Below, one piece after another: positions 45,904 through 50,246 of a DNA stretch of 64,000 bases; position 1 is the stretch's first letter; each line of letters opens with the position of its first letter. The position numbers were made by a program, and so were the translations under genes. Location of the stretch: positions 656,501 to 720,500 of the forward strand of contig NZ_CP110644.1 in assembly GCF_026153515.1 (NCBI RefSeq), read 5' to 3'. This DNA is from Pseudomonas sp. KU26590. GTDB lineage: Bacteria; Pseudomonadota; Gammaproteobacteria; Pseudomonadales; Pseudomonadaceae. The notes under the pieces are model-generated. The model did no database searches and was not told the DNA's origin. It saw only the letters and a program-made list of their open reading frames with translations.

Positions 45904-46668
45904 ATGTGGGAGCTCATTCAGAAAGACCTGATCAGCCAGGGCCTGGTCACCGCGTTTGCGGTCGTGGGCGTGGTGATGTGGATTTCCGTGGTGCTGTCCA
46001 AGCGCCTGACGTTCGGGCGCATTCATGGTTCGGCCATTGCGATCGTAATTGGCCTGGTGCTGGCGTGGGTAGGCGGCACGATGACCGGCGGCCAGAAAGG
46101 GCTGGCGGACCTGGCGTTGTTCTCCGGGATCGGCCTGATGGGCGGGTCGATGCTGCGTGATTTCGCCATCGTCGCCACGGCCTTCGAAGTGCAGGCCACC
46201 GAAGCGAAAAAGGCTGGCTGGGTCGGCGCGTTCTCGCTGCTGCTCGGCACATTGCTGCCGTTCATCGTCGGTTGCTGCGTGGCGTATGCCTTCGGCTATC
46301 GCGACGCCGTGAGCATCACCACCATTGGCGCGGGCGCGGTGACGTACATCGTCGGGCCGGTGACCGGTGCAGCGCTGGGCGCGAGCTCGGATGTGATGGC
46401 GCTGTCGATTGCGACTGGTTTGATCAAGGCCATTCTGGTCATGGTTGGCACCCCGATGGCCGCGCGCTGGATGGGGCTGGATAACCCGCGTTCGGCAATG
46501 GTGTTCGGCGGTCTGGCCGGCACCGTGAGCGGCGTGACGGCCGGGTTGGCGGCGACGGATCGACGGCTGGTGCCTTACGGCGCACTGACGGCGACGTTCC
46601 ACACCGGACTGGGCTGCCTGCTGGGGCCGTCGCTGCTGTACTTCATCGTGCGCGGAATTTTGGGCTGA
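45904..46668 (+). CDS. madM: Malonate transporter subunit MadM
   Basis: A 254-residue membrane protein with seven or so TM segments, MadL's partner. Conserved glycine-rich loops: KRLTFGRIHGSAIAIVIGLVLAW-type N-terminal region (KRLTFGRIHGSAIAI), LADLALFSGIGLMGGSMLRD, TTIGAGAVTYIVGPVTGAAL and FGGLAGTVSGVTAGLAATD. Ends the operon; the REPIN array starts 57 bp later. No terminator other than the REPIN hairpins is visible. Confidence 0.94.
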   Translation: MWELIQKDLISQGLVTAFAVVGVVMWISVVLSKRLTFGRIHGSAIAIVIGLVLAWVGGTMTGGQKGLADLALFSGIGLMGGSMLRDFAIVATAFEVQATEAKKAGWVGAFSLLLGTLLPFIVGCCVAYAFGYRDAVSITTIGAGAVTYIVGPVTGAALGASSDVMALSIATGLIKAILVMVGTPMAARWMGLDNPRSAMVFGGLAGTVSGVTAGLAATDRRLVPYGALTATFHTGLGCLLGPSLLYFIVRGILG

Positions 46669-46724: not shown

Positions 46725-48358
46725 TTGTCCGCCGCAAAACCTGTAGGAGCGCGCTTGCCCGCGAAGACTTGAGTTCGGACGACGGAGATACGTCGGCTGT
46801 ACCGGCCCGTTCGCGGGCAAGCGCGCTCCTACGCCTTCGGCAGAAGCGGGTTTAGCGCAGCCTTGGCAGTGCACATCAACGAGCAAATCTGGATACGACG
46901 TTATTCACGCGGGCAGTCGTGAATTTGGCGTCCGCCGCAAAACCTGTAGGAGCGCGCTTGCCCGCGAAGACTTTGGTTCAGACGATAGAGATGCTTGGGC
47001 TCCACTGGCCCGTTCGCGGGCAAGCGCGCTCCTACGCCTTCGGCAGAAGCCGGTTCGGCGCAGCATTGGCAGTGCACCTCAATGAGCAAATCTGGATGCG
47101 GCGTTATTCGCGCGGGCAGTCGTGAATTTGGCGTTTGCCGCAAACCTGTAGGAGCACGCTTGCCCGCGAAGACTTTGGTTCAGACGATAGAGATGCTTGG
47201 GCTGCACTGGCCTGTTCGCGGGCAAGCGCGCTCCTACGCCTTCGGCAGAAGCGGGTTTAGCGCAGCCTTGGCAGTGCGCCTCAACGAGCAAATCTGGATG
47301 CGACGTTATTCACGCGGGCAGACGTGGATTTGGCGTTCGCCGCAAAACCTGTAGGAGCGCGCTTGCCCGCGAAGGCTTCGGTTCGGACGATAGAGATGCG
47401 TCGGCTGTACCGGCCTGTTCGCGGGCAAGCGCGCTCCTACGCCTTCGGCAGAAGCCGGTTCGGCGCAGCATTGGCAGTGCACCTCAACGAGCAAATCTGG
47501 AAGCGGCGTTATTCACGCGGGCAGTCGTGAATTTGGCGTCCGCCGCAAAACCTGTAGGAGCGCGCTTGCCCGCGAAAAAATCTCACAGCCACACAGCATC
47601 CCAGAGCGGATAATCGCCCACGCGTTTCACCAGACCGGCCCGCAACGGATTGGCTACGATGTAACGCGCAACGGCCTGCAAATCTTCCTCCCGCCGGACC
47701 GCCCGGTCGTGATAACCCTTCTGCCATACCCGAAACGGTGTGTGGCCCGCCCGCATGATCGCCAGCGCGCTGCCGGATTTAACCCGGCGCACCAGCATTC
47801 CCAAGGTTCCCTCTCTCAACACCACGAGCCAGTGAAAATGGTCCGGCATGACAACCCACGCCAGAGACTCTGCAATCCCGGCCTGCTGGGCTCGTCGAAA
47901 CTCCTCGACTACCAACCGACCTGTGCGCCAGTTGAAGAAAAGAGGTTGTCGGCCATGCACCACGGAGGTCAGAAGATAAATCTGCCCTACTCCCGAGTAA
48001 CGGCCTAGCCGCAGATCAGCGCTTCTTTGTGACATTGGCATTCCTTCGCGCAGTGAAGTGTGCGGAATCAGGCTAGTGCACGGACGATCATCCCTGCGGC
48101 AAACAAATATTCCGGATGTGTCCGTGATGACGCGTTCGCGGGCAAGCGCGCTCCTACGCCTTCGGCAGAAGCGGGTTCGGCGCAGCATTGGCAGTGCACC
48201 TCAACGAGGAAATCTGGATGCGGCGTTATTCTCGGGGGCAGACGTGAATTTGGCGTCTGCCGCAAAACCTGTAGGAGCGCGCTTGCCCGCGAAGGCTTTG
48301 GTTCGGACGATAGAGATATTTGGGCTGCACCGGCCTCTTCGCGGGCAAGCGCGCTCCC
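46725..48358. repeat. Tandem array of ~203-bp units, each containing a REPIN, interrupted by a RAYT gene
   Basis: Unit starts (CCTGTAGG) are at 46740, 46943, 47145, 47348, 47551 and 48268, with spacings 203, 202, 203, 203 and 717 bp. Each unit holds an inverted REP pair of the GCGCGCTTGCCCGC family (for example arms 46743-46765 and 46810-46832, 44-nt loop) and a ~110-bp spacer that is repeated too, carrying GCAGCATTGGCAGTGCACCT-like sequence and a small hairpin (ATTCACG/CGTGAAT, partly decayed in some copies). In the fifth unit the loop is replaced by the RAYT gene. The last copy is truncated near 48358. The 914 bp from madM to RAYT hold nothing else. Confidence 0.93.
47583..48035 (-). CDS. 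REP-associated tyrosine transposase (RAYT, Y1 family)
   Basis: A 150-residue Y1-type transposase, domesticated IS200-like. The HUH metal motif is HFH at 66-68 (VVMPDHFHWLVVL), and the likely nucleophile is Tyr125 in ARYIVANPLRAGL; WQKGYHDRA lies between. All catalytic positions look intact. ATG at 48035 was chosen because AAGGA is correctly spaced for it; the ATG at 48041 is too close. The gene sits between REP arms at 47554-47576 and 48135-48157, so it should recognise the GCGCGC family. Its stop codon is six bases from the left arm. Confidence 0.92.
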   Translation of the reverse strand: MSQRSADLRLGRYSGVGQIYLLTSVVHGRQPLFFNWRTGRLVVEEFRRAQQAGIAESLAWVVMPDHFHWLVVLREGTLGMLVRRVKSGSALAIMRAGHTPFRVWQKGYHDRAVRREEDLQAVARYIVANPLRAGLVKRVGDYPLWDAVWL

Positions 48359-48371
48359 AGAGAGGGGCGGC

Positions 48372-49292
48372 TCAGGCCTGGGCCAGCCGGTTCGAGTACA
48401 TCCGGCACTCCGCAAGCAGCGCGAGCAAATTGGGGTCCCGTTCGCGGGATTTGAGGAAGACCAGACCGATGTGCTGCTGCATGCGATAACGCTGTTGCAA
48501 TGGAATCAGCCGCACACGGTTTTCATACACCGCCGCAATCCTCCCCGGCAGCAGCGCGTAACCCACACCCGAGCTGACCATGCTCAGCAGCGTGAAGATG
48601 TCGTTGACCTGCATCGCCACTTTCGGCTCGAAGCCTGCCTGTTGAAACACCATCGCCCCATCACGATGGGTCGCGAAACCTTGCGTCAGGGTAATGAACG
48701 TCGCTTCGCGCAGATCGCCCAGGTTCACTTCGCTTTGCTGGGCGAAGGGGGAATCCACCGGGGCCGCGAGGAAGATGTCGTCTGAGAACAGTGGCAAATG
48801 CTCGCAATCCGGATCACTCACGGATTCGTTCAGCGACACCAGAATCGCATCCACTTCCATGTTCTTCAGCTTGTAGAAGAGGTCGATGTTCGAGCCCAGA
48901 ATCAGGTCGATGTTGAGTTCGCTGCGGCGGATCTTCAGGCCCATGATCAGCTGCGGCACGGTTTTGACCGTCAGGGAGTACAGCGCCCCCAGCTTGAACC
49001 GCGCCGCTGAAAACCCGGCCGCCTGCCGCGTTTGCTCAATGGTACTGAGCACGTCCTGCACCAGCTTCTGCGCGCGCTCCTCCAGCACGTAAGCGCCTTC
49101 GAGCGGCGTAAGGTTGCGGCCCTCATGCTTGAACAGCGGGCAACGCAAGGCGCTCTCCAGCGAATGAATCGCCCGATGCACACTGACCGTACTCGTCTGC
49201 AGCTCCGCCGCCGCCCTGGCCAGATTGCCGGTGCGCATGAACGCCAGAAAAATTTCCAGCTTCTTGAGGGTCAGCTCTTCGTCGATCTGCAT
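48372..49292 (-). CDS. mdcR: LysR-type regulator of malonate utilisation MdcR
   Basis: A 306-residue LysR regulator. N-terminal winged HTH: LTLKKLEIFLAFMRTGNLAR then AAELQTSTVSVHRAIHSLE. The effector domain follows from about 90. The start MQIDEELTLKKLEIFLAF and HEGRNLTPLEGAYVLEERAQ resemble MdcR as I recall it. The location just beyond mdc-madLM supports this, although it is on the opposite strand and separated by the REPIN array. It probably activates mdcA in response to malonate. ATG at 49292. Confidence 0.82.
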   Translation of the reverse strand: MQIDEELTLKKLEIFLAFMRTGNLARAAAELQTSTVSVHRAIHSLESALRCPLFKHEGRNLTPLEGAYVLEERAQKLVQDVLSTIEQTRQAAGFSAARFKLGALYSLTVKTVPQLIMGLKIRRSELNIDLILGSNIDLFYKLKNMEVDAILVSLNESVSDPDCEHLPLFSDDIFLAAPVDSPFAQQSEVNLGDLREATFITLTQGFATHRDGAMVFQQAGFEPKVAMQVNDIFTLLSMVSSGVGYALLPGRIAAVYENRVRLIPLQQRYRMQQHIGLVFLKSRERDPNLLALLAECRMYSNRLAQA

Positions 49293-49458
49293 CGTGGGGG
49301 CCCGCGCCGGGTTCTTGTTTTGAGAGCGCCCGATTGTGCCGAAGAGATCGGCGGCTGGCTGCATTAAATTCTCGATAACACGACACAATGCGTTGTCATT
49401 GCGGTTCAGAAGCAGGACCCTTGACGCGTGTCATGCCATTCAGAGAGGTCGTTTGCGG

Positions 49459-50156: not shown

Positions 50157-50246
50157 GTAGGAGCGCGCTTGCCCGCGAAGGCATTGGTTAGGACGACAGA
50201 GATGTGTCGCCTGTACCGACCTCTTCGCGGGCAAGCGCGCTCCTAC
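50157..50246. repeat. REPIN (GCGCGCTTGCCCGC family)
   Basis: Left arm GTAGGAGCGCGCTTGCCCGC at 50157, right arm its reverse complement ending at 50246. The loop (ACGACAGAGATGTGTCGCCT region) is similar to loops of the 46.7-48.4 kb array. A decayed GCCGGC-family arm (TCGCCAGCAAGCCGGC) follows at 50297-50312; both are in the 499-bp gap before the ABC operon. Confidence 0.9.

Follow-up and report, generated by a model that had tools for sequence, protein, structure and literature searches.

Does a RAYT gene that sits inside a REPIN array mark the place where REPINs are born, or did it come there from elsewhere? The question is raised by a locus in Pseudomonas sp. KU26590, within a stretch of 64,000 nucleotides (the window) of a 6.18-Mb genome that is assembled as a single contig. 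The sections of the literature cited here describe RAYTs as genes that occur singly and seem unable to mobilise themselves (PMC3116915), and as single copy, vertically inherited and not copying themselves (PMC8049555). In the same sections they adjoin REPIN clusters or BIMEs in about a third of cases (PMC2817692), and SBW25 has clusters beside each of its three RAYTs (PMC3116915). The best explanation of the present locus is that it holds a relocated RAYT, rather than being a birthplace of REPINs.

A RAYT gene in the loop position of a REPIN

Between madM, which encodes a malonate transporter subunit (45904..46668, plus strand), and a LysR-type regulator gene, lysR (48372..49388, minus strand), lies a tandem array of six REPIN units with a period of ~203 bp (46743..48360, no strand assigned). 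The left arms of the six units begin at 46743, 46946, 47148, 47351, 47554 and 48271, and the five spacers between units measure 113, 112, 113, 113 and 113 bp. Unit 1 (46743..46832, no strand assigned) and units 2, 3, 4 and 6 (46946-47035, 47148-47237, 47351-47440 and 48271-48360) are plain REPINs of 90 bp each with 44-nt loops, and their only arm mismatches are one in one arm of unit 3 and two in one arm of unit 6. These five units have the two inverted REPs and the short loop of a REPIN, and such elements are present in many copies, with 121 exact REPINs genome-wide whose loops span 35-55 nt. Within the window, the 23-bp arm occurs 21 times at three or fewer mismatches, against 0 in 100 shuffles.

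The remaining unit is the fifth of six from madM and the second from the lysR end. The sequence-only reading had claimed that its arms are intact, with the loop replaced by 558 bp carrying the transposase, and that the flanking units continue in register on both sides, and our analysis bears this out. The left REP arm (47554..47576, plus strand, downstream of the RAYT gene) and the right REP arm (48135..48157, minus strand, upstream of it) are 100% complementary across 23 bp and stand 558 nt apart, and the flanking array spacers on the madM side (47441..47553) and the lysR side (48158..48270), neither with an assigned strand, are both 113 bp. The RAYT segment (47577..48134, minus strand) is where the 44-nt loop would be, and the RAYT ORF alone fills it. 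With an inverted REP on each side of the gene, the unit has the arrangement of a RAYT locus.

The gene, RAYT-A (47583..48038 including the stop, minus strand, 151 aa), is assigned from Pfam, NCBIfam and an alignment to 4er8. Its protein matches NCBIfam NF047646 (REP-associated tyrosine transposase; 149.3 bits, cut-off 80) and Pfam PF01797 Y1_Tnp (E 1.8e-5; 25.3 bits, cut-off 23), and its sole solved relative at E up to 0.1 is the TnpA-REP structure 4er8_A. The HxH motif of RAYT-A (H67, H69) and its Tyr126 align with H59, H61 and Y115 of 4er8, which we take to be the catalytic residues of that protein. We predict that the relocated RAYT-A gene still functions and maintains the REPIN population of the GCGCGC class. 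Members of the IS200/IS605 family likewise have a Y1_Tnp domain with HxH and Tyr, but autonomous elements of that family occur in many near-identical copies per genome, whereas RAYT-A is present once in the window's genome (the next match among those listed is 62%), substitutes a repeat unit rather than interrupting a target, and has no TnpB gene in its 558-bp segment. The window's genome has five Y1_Tnp matches, one of them with an internal stop; this fifth Y1_Tnp gene (G000:C1:1069321-1069644, L001) is interrupted by a TAA codon.

RAYT-A at two addresses among relatives

The window's genome groups with Pseudomonas graminis, P. petrae and the genome G020, with 88-96% nucleotide identity in ilvD, an rlmI-like gene, madM and lysR. 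We placed the closest RAYT relatives in named genomes (the best 80 of at least 585 confirmed loci) by their neighbour genes. RAYT-A adjoins lysR at the madM address in P. graminis WP_8 (L071), P. graminis DSM 11363 (L090; here the array is joined to lysR and the contig stops before madM) and P. petrae P2653 (L073), and it lies in the gap between ilvD and the rlmI-like gene in P. petrae (L072), P. abietaniphila (L074), Pseudomonas sp. NFR16 (L075) and P. cichorii (L076). The ilvD assignment is above its curated cut-off, and the methyltransferase is RlmI-like yet below cut-offs. The two addresses are ~60 kb apart in the window's genome. P. petrae carries RAYT-A at both, in copies that are 98.0% alike in amino acids and 94.1% in nucleotides, so that the single copy and fixed position that are described for RAYTs, though not part of their definition, do not hold here: one species has two copies, and the clade has two addresses.

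Comparison shows the ilvD-rlmI-like gap to be the older home of RAYT-A. This gap is a recurrent RAYT address, and holds a RAYT in 26 of the 80 best named loci as tabulated, with 16 of the genes directed toward the rlmI-like gene and 10 in the opposite direction. When 199 genomes of the genus were compared with RAYT-A, 184 gave a match; ilvD-rlmI placements apply to the matches listed and do not amount to a genus-wide fraction. Among 42 home-locus pieces (30 loci and 12 fetched), in which RAYTs were called by tblastn with RAYT-A, B and C at E-values up to 1e-8, 13 reach the start of ilvD; a RAYT is present in 7 of these and absent from 6. One further piece, L177, extends to it in part, and 28 fall short of it.

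The madM gap holds neither array nor RAYT in G020, NFR16 (~115 bp) and P. cichorii (~115 bp); P. abietaniphila is left out of these empty scores, its best MadM being a distant homologue (68% aa). None of the relatives compared has a plain REPIN at precisely this unit of the array, and we therefore infer the state of the array before the exchange.

The tree places all five RAYT-A copies of the graminis/petrae group in a single clade (100/100), which excludes the home copies of the outgroups, and the divergence of RAYT-A inside this clade (90-94% nt) resembles that of host genes. Within the clade the four madM copies join with weak support (58/65), and a topology with the P. petrae copies as sisters is not rejected (AU p 0.27), so the tree fits either a single origin of the madM copies followed by conversion or two separate origins. 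The species branching order is likewise unsettled in the tree, which leaves room for G020 to be a basal lineage or one from which the array was lost.

Homology ends and junctions at REPs

The block common to the window and the home copies is REP-RAYT-REP (47552..48157, minus strand), and its homology ends at the REPs. The P. petrae home copy is 92.8% identical to the window in a 608-bp alignment (47552-48157), outside of which only REPIN-sized DNA matches, and the NFR16 home copy is 75.0% identical in a 609-bp alignment over the same range, 47552-48157. On the 5' side of the gene, all four madM-address copies read from array spacer to REP to RAYT. An array-type spacer follows on the 3' side in the window, WP_8 and DSM 11363, whereas the P. 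petrae madM copy instead continues with 62 bp of home-type spacer, followed by a REP and then by an array REPIN loop. These 62 bp score 69.0 against the home spacer, where the maximum in 200 shuffles is 24.0, and score no better than shuffled against the array spacers. The array spacer at the corresponding place in the window (47441..47553) is confined to the madM array in four of the six genomes searched, and is absent from G020 and NFR16. We regard the 3' junction of P. petrae as the best evidence that home-site DNA became linked with the array through REPs. The home spacer is no longer present in the window, WP_8 and DSM 11363, and hence a second exchange, or separate events, would be needed to account for them.

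The home-site spacer itself contains a 9-bp microsatellite (GGACAACGC), and measures 161 bp in P. petrae and 125 bp in P. graminis WP_8 (L072 6483-6643, L217). The home-site spacer of P. abietaniphila has a similar microsatellite with another sequence.

The home site in close relatives

As comparison shows, a REP-ended block now takes the place of one REPIN at madM, and close relatives have since lost or replaced the home copy. In WP_8 the RAYT is gone from the home site, and the scar lacks exactly one REP-to-REP interval. At the P. petrae home site, two REPs of the same orientation, each within a 39-bp exact repeat, flank the RAYT 713 bp apart; the WP_8 scar retains one copy of the REP and 39-bp repeat, with the P. 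petrae-type left flank on its left and the right flank on its right. The WP_8 gap is 749 bp shorter than that of P. petrae, which equals the 713-bp repeat interval plus a 36-bp difference in the microsatellite.

In other relatives the home site holds a different RAYT. DSM 11363 and G020 have RAYT-B with GTAGGAGTGAGCTTGCTCGCGA REPs, and their RAYT-B proteins are 93% identical to each other and 59-61% identical to RAYT-A. The window's genome has RAYT-C, which is 61% identical in amino acids to RAYT-A, has GTAGGAGCGTGGCTTGTCCCGCGA REPs on one side, and is oriented opposite to the home copies of RAYT-A. Rapid evolution of RAYTs has been reported, in the part of PMC2817692 cited here, so divergence in place has to be weighed against replacement. 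Replacement of the home-site RAYT-A by a different RAYT appears to be the better reading, because ilvD and the rlmI-like gene of these home-site genomes are 93-96% identical to those of the window's genome, because RAYT-A is 96-98% identical in amino acids between the window and P. petrae, and because DSM 11363 carries both RAYT-A and RAYT-B.

Beside the rlmI-like gene, the home site of DSM 11363 and G020 also has a hybrid REPIN, in which one arm belongs to the GTGAGC class, and the loop and second arm to the GTGGCTTGTCCC class. At that REPIN, both arms are of the GTGGCTTGTCCC class in the window's genome (L066 7120-8080, G000:C1 ~643.1-644.1k; with L216, L070).

How the RAYT may have changed its address

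We consider it probable that a REP-bounded RAYT changed its chromosomal address by REP-to-REP recombination into the REPIN array. In this account, gene conversion, a non-reciprocal recombination, between identical REPs would carry the block into the array, and exchanges inside the 23-25 bp REP arms would substitute one REPIN unit in register. Later recombination between REPs of the same orientation would have removed RAYT-A from the WP_8 home site, and nicking of REPs by the RAYT is a putative step that may initiate the exchanges. The event is expected to have been non-reciprocal, since RAYT-A in P. petrae has opposite orientations at its two addresses, and P. petrae is collinear with the window's genome in the stretches compared (the whole window plus 14 kb surrounding the home site). 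At 23-25 bp, the shared homology lies close to the lower limit for ordinary homologous exchange, and this counts against our account.

What favors recombination between REPs over insertion is that the 44-nt loop of unit 5 is missing, not split, with the unit staying in register, that the P. petrae tract does not stop at the REP of the RAYT but continues as far as the following one, and that the WP_8 loss spans direct, not inverted, REPs. The same three observations speak against transposition catalyzed by the RAYT itself, in which the protein would act on the REPs beside its gene in single-stranded form, cut them and join REP-RAYT-REP to an array REP in the manner of IS200/IS605. We think this unlikely, although the ends of the moved block are REPs, the presumed substrates, the HxH and Tyr residues are kept in RAYT-A, and a REP-specific nuclease activity is recorded for E. 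coli TnpA-REP in the passages of PMC3686654 and PMC6006769 cited here. The proposal of the sequence-only reading that the RAYT was mobilised as the cargo of its own REPIN survives insofar as the gene appears to have moved together with its REPs, to which the home copies, the double-copy state of P. petrae and the WP_8 loss all point; insertion into a loop is the less likely part, because the recipient loop was replaced rather than interrupted.

REP-to-REP recombination within one genome also has to be set against horizontal exchange, in which the madM region or the RAYT would have come from a related strain by transformation and recombined at REPs or at the flanks. The species are close and their branching is unsettled, P. 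petrae lysR is 87.8% like that of the window as against 93.3% for madM, and for one of the two RAYTs of strain Q8r1-96 a lateral origin has been proposed (in the part of PMC3390384 cited here). We nevertheless judge this quite improbable, given the single, fully supported clade of the five graminis/petrae copies with its host-like divergence, and given that REP junctions inside the array would still be required.

Array loops compared with the RAYT segment

A converse model, also raised in the sequence-only reading, makes the RAYT-REP locus at madM the parent from which the array REPINs arose by loop deletion. Three of the five plain array units were used for loop alignment, the two with arm mismatches being left out, and their loops score 18, 17 and 16 against the RAYT segment, where shuffled sequences average 16.1 and reach 26. 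We therefore reject the RAYT ends as the source of the array REPIN loops, whose alignment to the segment is no better than that of shuffled loops. The sequence-only reading had named a lack of relation between loop ends and the ends of the 558-bp segment as evidence against such an origin, and for the array loops this is what we find. A loop of the array family is also present in a lone REPIN at 50157, and RAYT-A sits at ilvD-rlmI in outgroups, the older of its two addresses. The model keeps some appeal in the identity of the arms and in the ends of REPIN loops more generally. When 20 loops of the window's genome (5 from the window and 15 fetched, out of the 121 exact REPINs) were compared in both orientations, their mean match to the RAYT 5' end was 3.55 over 10 nt (shuffled 2.57) and 6.15 over 15 nt (shuffled 3.76), an excess to which we attach no probability because the loops are related to each other. 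At the 3' end there is no mean excess (3.15 against 3.6), but one loop matches at 11 of 15 positions, where the maximum in 300 shuffles is 8. These figures would be compatible with RAYT ends and REPIN loops at large being distantly connected; the birth of the array REPINs at this locus is scarcely credible.

An assembly artefact is extremely improbable as well: REP arrays are hard to assemble and three of the relatives are draft genomes, but the window lies in a single-contig genome, RAYT-A stands within REPINs beside lysR in four genomes, and the two P. petrae copies are on one 450-kb contig and differ by ~6%.

Relation to known RAYT systems

The elements of this locus are all known; what is new is that a move between addresses is documented, together with its REP joints. 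Like the Pseudomonas RAYT loci already described, this one has a gene of the same family between inverted REPs, and such loci are often found by REPIN clusters or BIMEs. Those loci are described as single copy and stable in position, whereas here the gene replaces one unit of a REPIN array and demonstrably derives from another locus, and P. petrae has two copies at once that are 98% alike. Orthoswitches, for which the cited portion of PMC3686654 leaves the mechanism open, are reported there along with three strains that have a RAYT at a novel site. The orthogroups and orthoswitch of that study (Nunvar 2013, PMC3686654) resemble our case in having different REP classes at one RAYT address, but in the same portion the change is put down to mutation of REPs beside the same RAYT, whereas here whole RAYT-plus-REP cassettes differ and the junctions are visible. 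The E. coli TnpA-REP REPtron (PMC6006769) similarly joins a RAYT gene with several REP pairs; in the part of that paper cited here, no change of address such as that of RAYT-A is described, and the class that includes TnpA-REP is said to occur in few copies, which resemble one another little within a genome. Our literature search, which covered titles and the openings of abstracts and had subscription papers largely outside its reach, returned no description of REP-joined RAYT relocation or of the ilvD address.

The move of RAYT-A contradicts the published view, as far as the cited parts of those papers state it, of RAYTs as domesticated, single-copy, vertically inherited genes that are unable to copy themselves. 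The donor site, the double-copy state, the recipient array and the scar each survive in one or another genome of this clade; REPs mark the joints, and together these states form a record of the process at the level of sequence. Both the arrival of RAYTs at new sites and the change of REP class at a locus thereby become testable in living strains.

A broader reading, which we offer tentatively as possible rather than probable, is that REP-RAYT-REP is a mobile cassette whose REPs serve as exchange sites, possibly opened by the RAYT. Such cassettes would be copied into arrays, deleted down to a one-REP scar, and swapped at the ilvD-rlmI-like gap, a docking site occupied by different RAYT lineages in both orientations. 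If true, this would provide a mechanism for orthoswitches. Pseudomonas sp. LS-2 has two RAYTs (L082, L083) that are 89.7% alike and lie at different sites, one of them beside a tandem REP array. We considered this pair as a second recent duplication and set it aside as support, since the 552-bp block that they share is not clearly bounded by REPs.

REP populations

High REP counts mostly go with RAYT-A. Exact copies of GTAGGAGCGCGCTTGCCCGCGA number 516 in the window's genome, 506 in WP_8, 423 in P. petrae, 343 in DSM 11363, 284 in P. abietaniphila and 80 in NFR16, which are the genomes with RAYT-A at 84% amino acid identity or more, and there are 5 in P. cichorii, whose RAYT-A is 74% identical, and 4 in G020, which lacks RAYT-A. 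Counts in six other genomes are 272 (G181), 54 (G026), 29 (G115), 20 (G126), 0 (G011) and 0 (G016). G181, with 272 REPs and a 68% RAYT, and P. cichorii, with its 5, sit poorly with a simple pairing of REPs with RAYT-A. In WP_8, DSM 11363 and the window's genome, the only RAYT-A copy among the matches listed is the one at the madM address, and for this reason that copy is likely the keeper of the REP populations in these three genomes.

Most REPIN sites differ among the window, G020 and P. petrae (12 intergenic sites, 7.6-63.4 kb) despite surroundings that are ~92-96% identical, and several of the 12 window gaps are filled, from one species to another, by unrelated REPINs that differ in class. 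Switching of arms on shared loops was considered as a general process in the same 12 gap sites, 11 of which were compared with G020 and 8 with P. petrae; it was rejected by eye, without statistics, as no swapped GCGCGC arms were seen on a shared loop. The REPIN at 29.0 kb is common to the window and P. petrae and has the same arm class in both, and the same is true of the REP at 20.8 kb.
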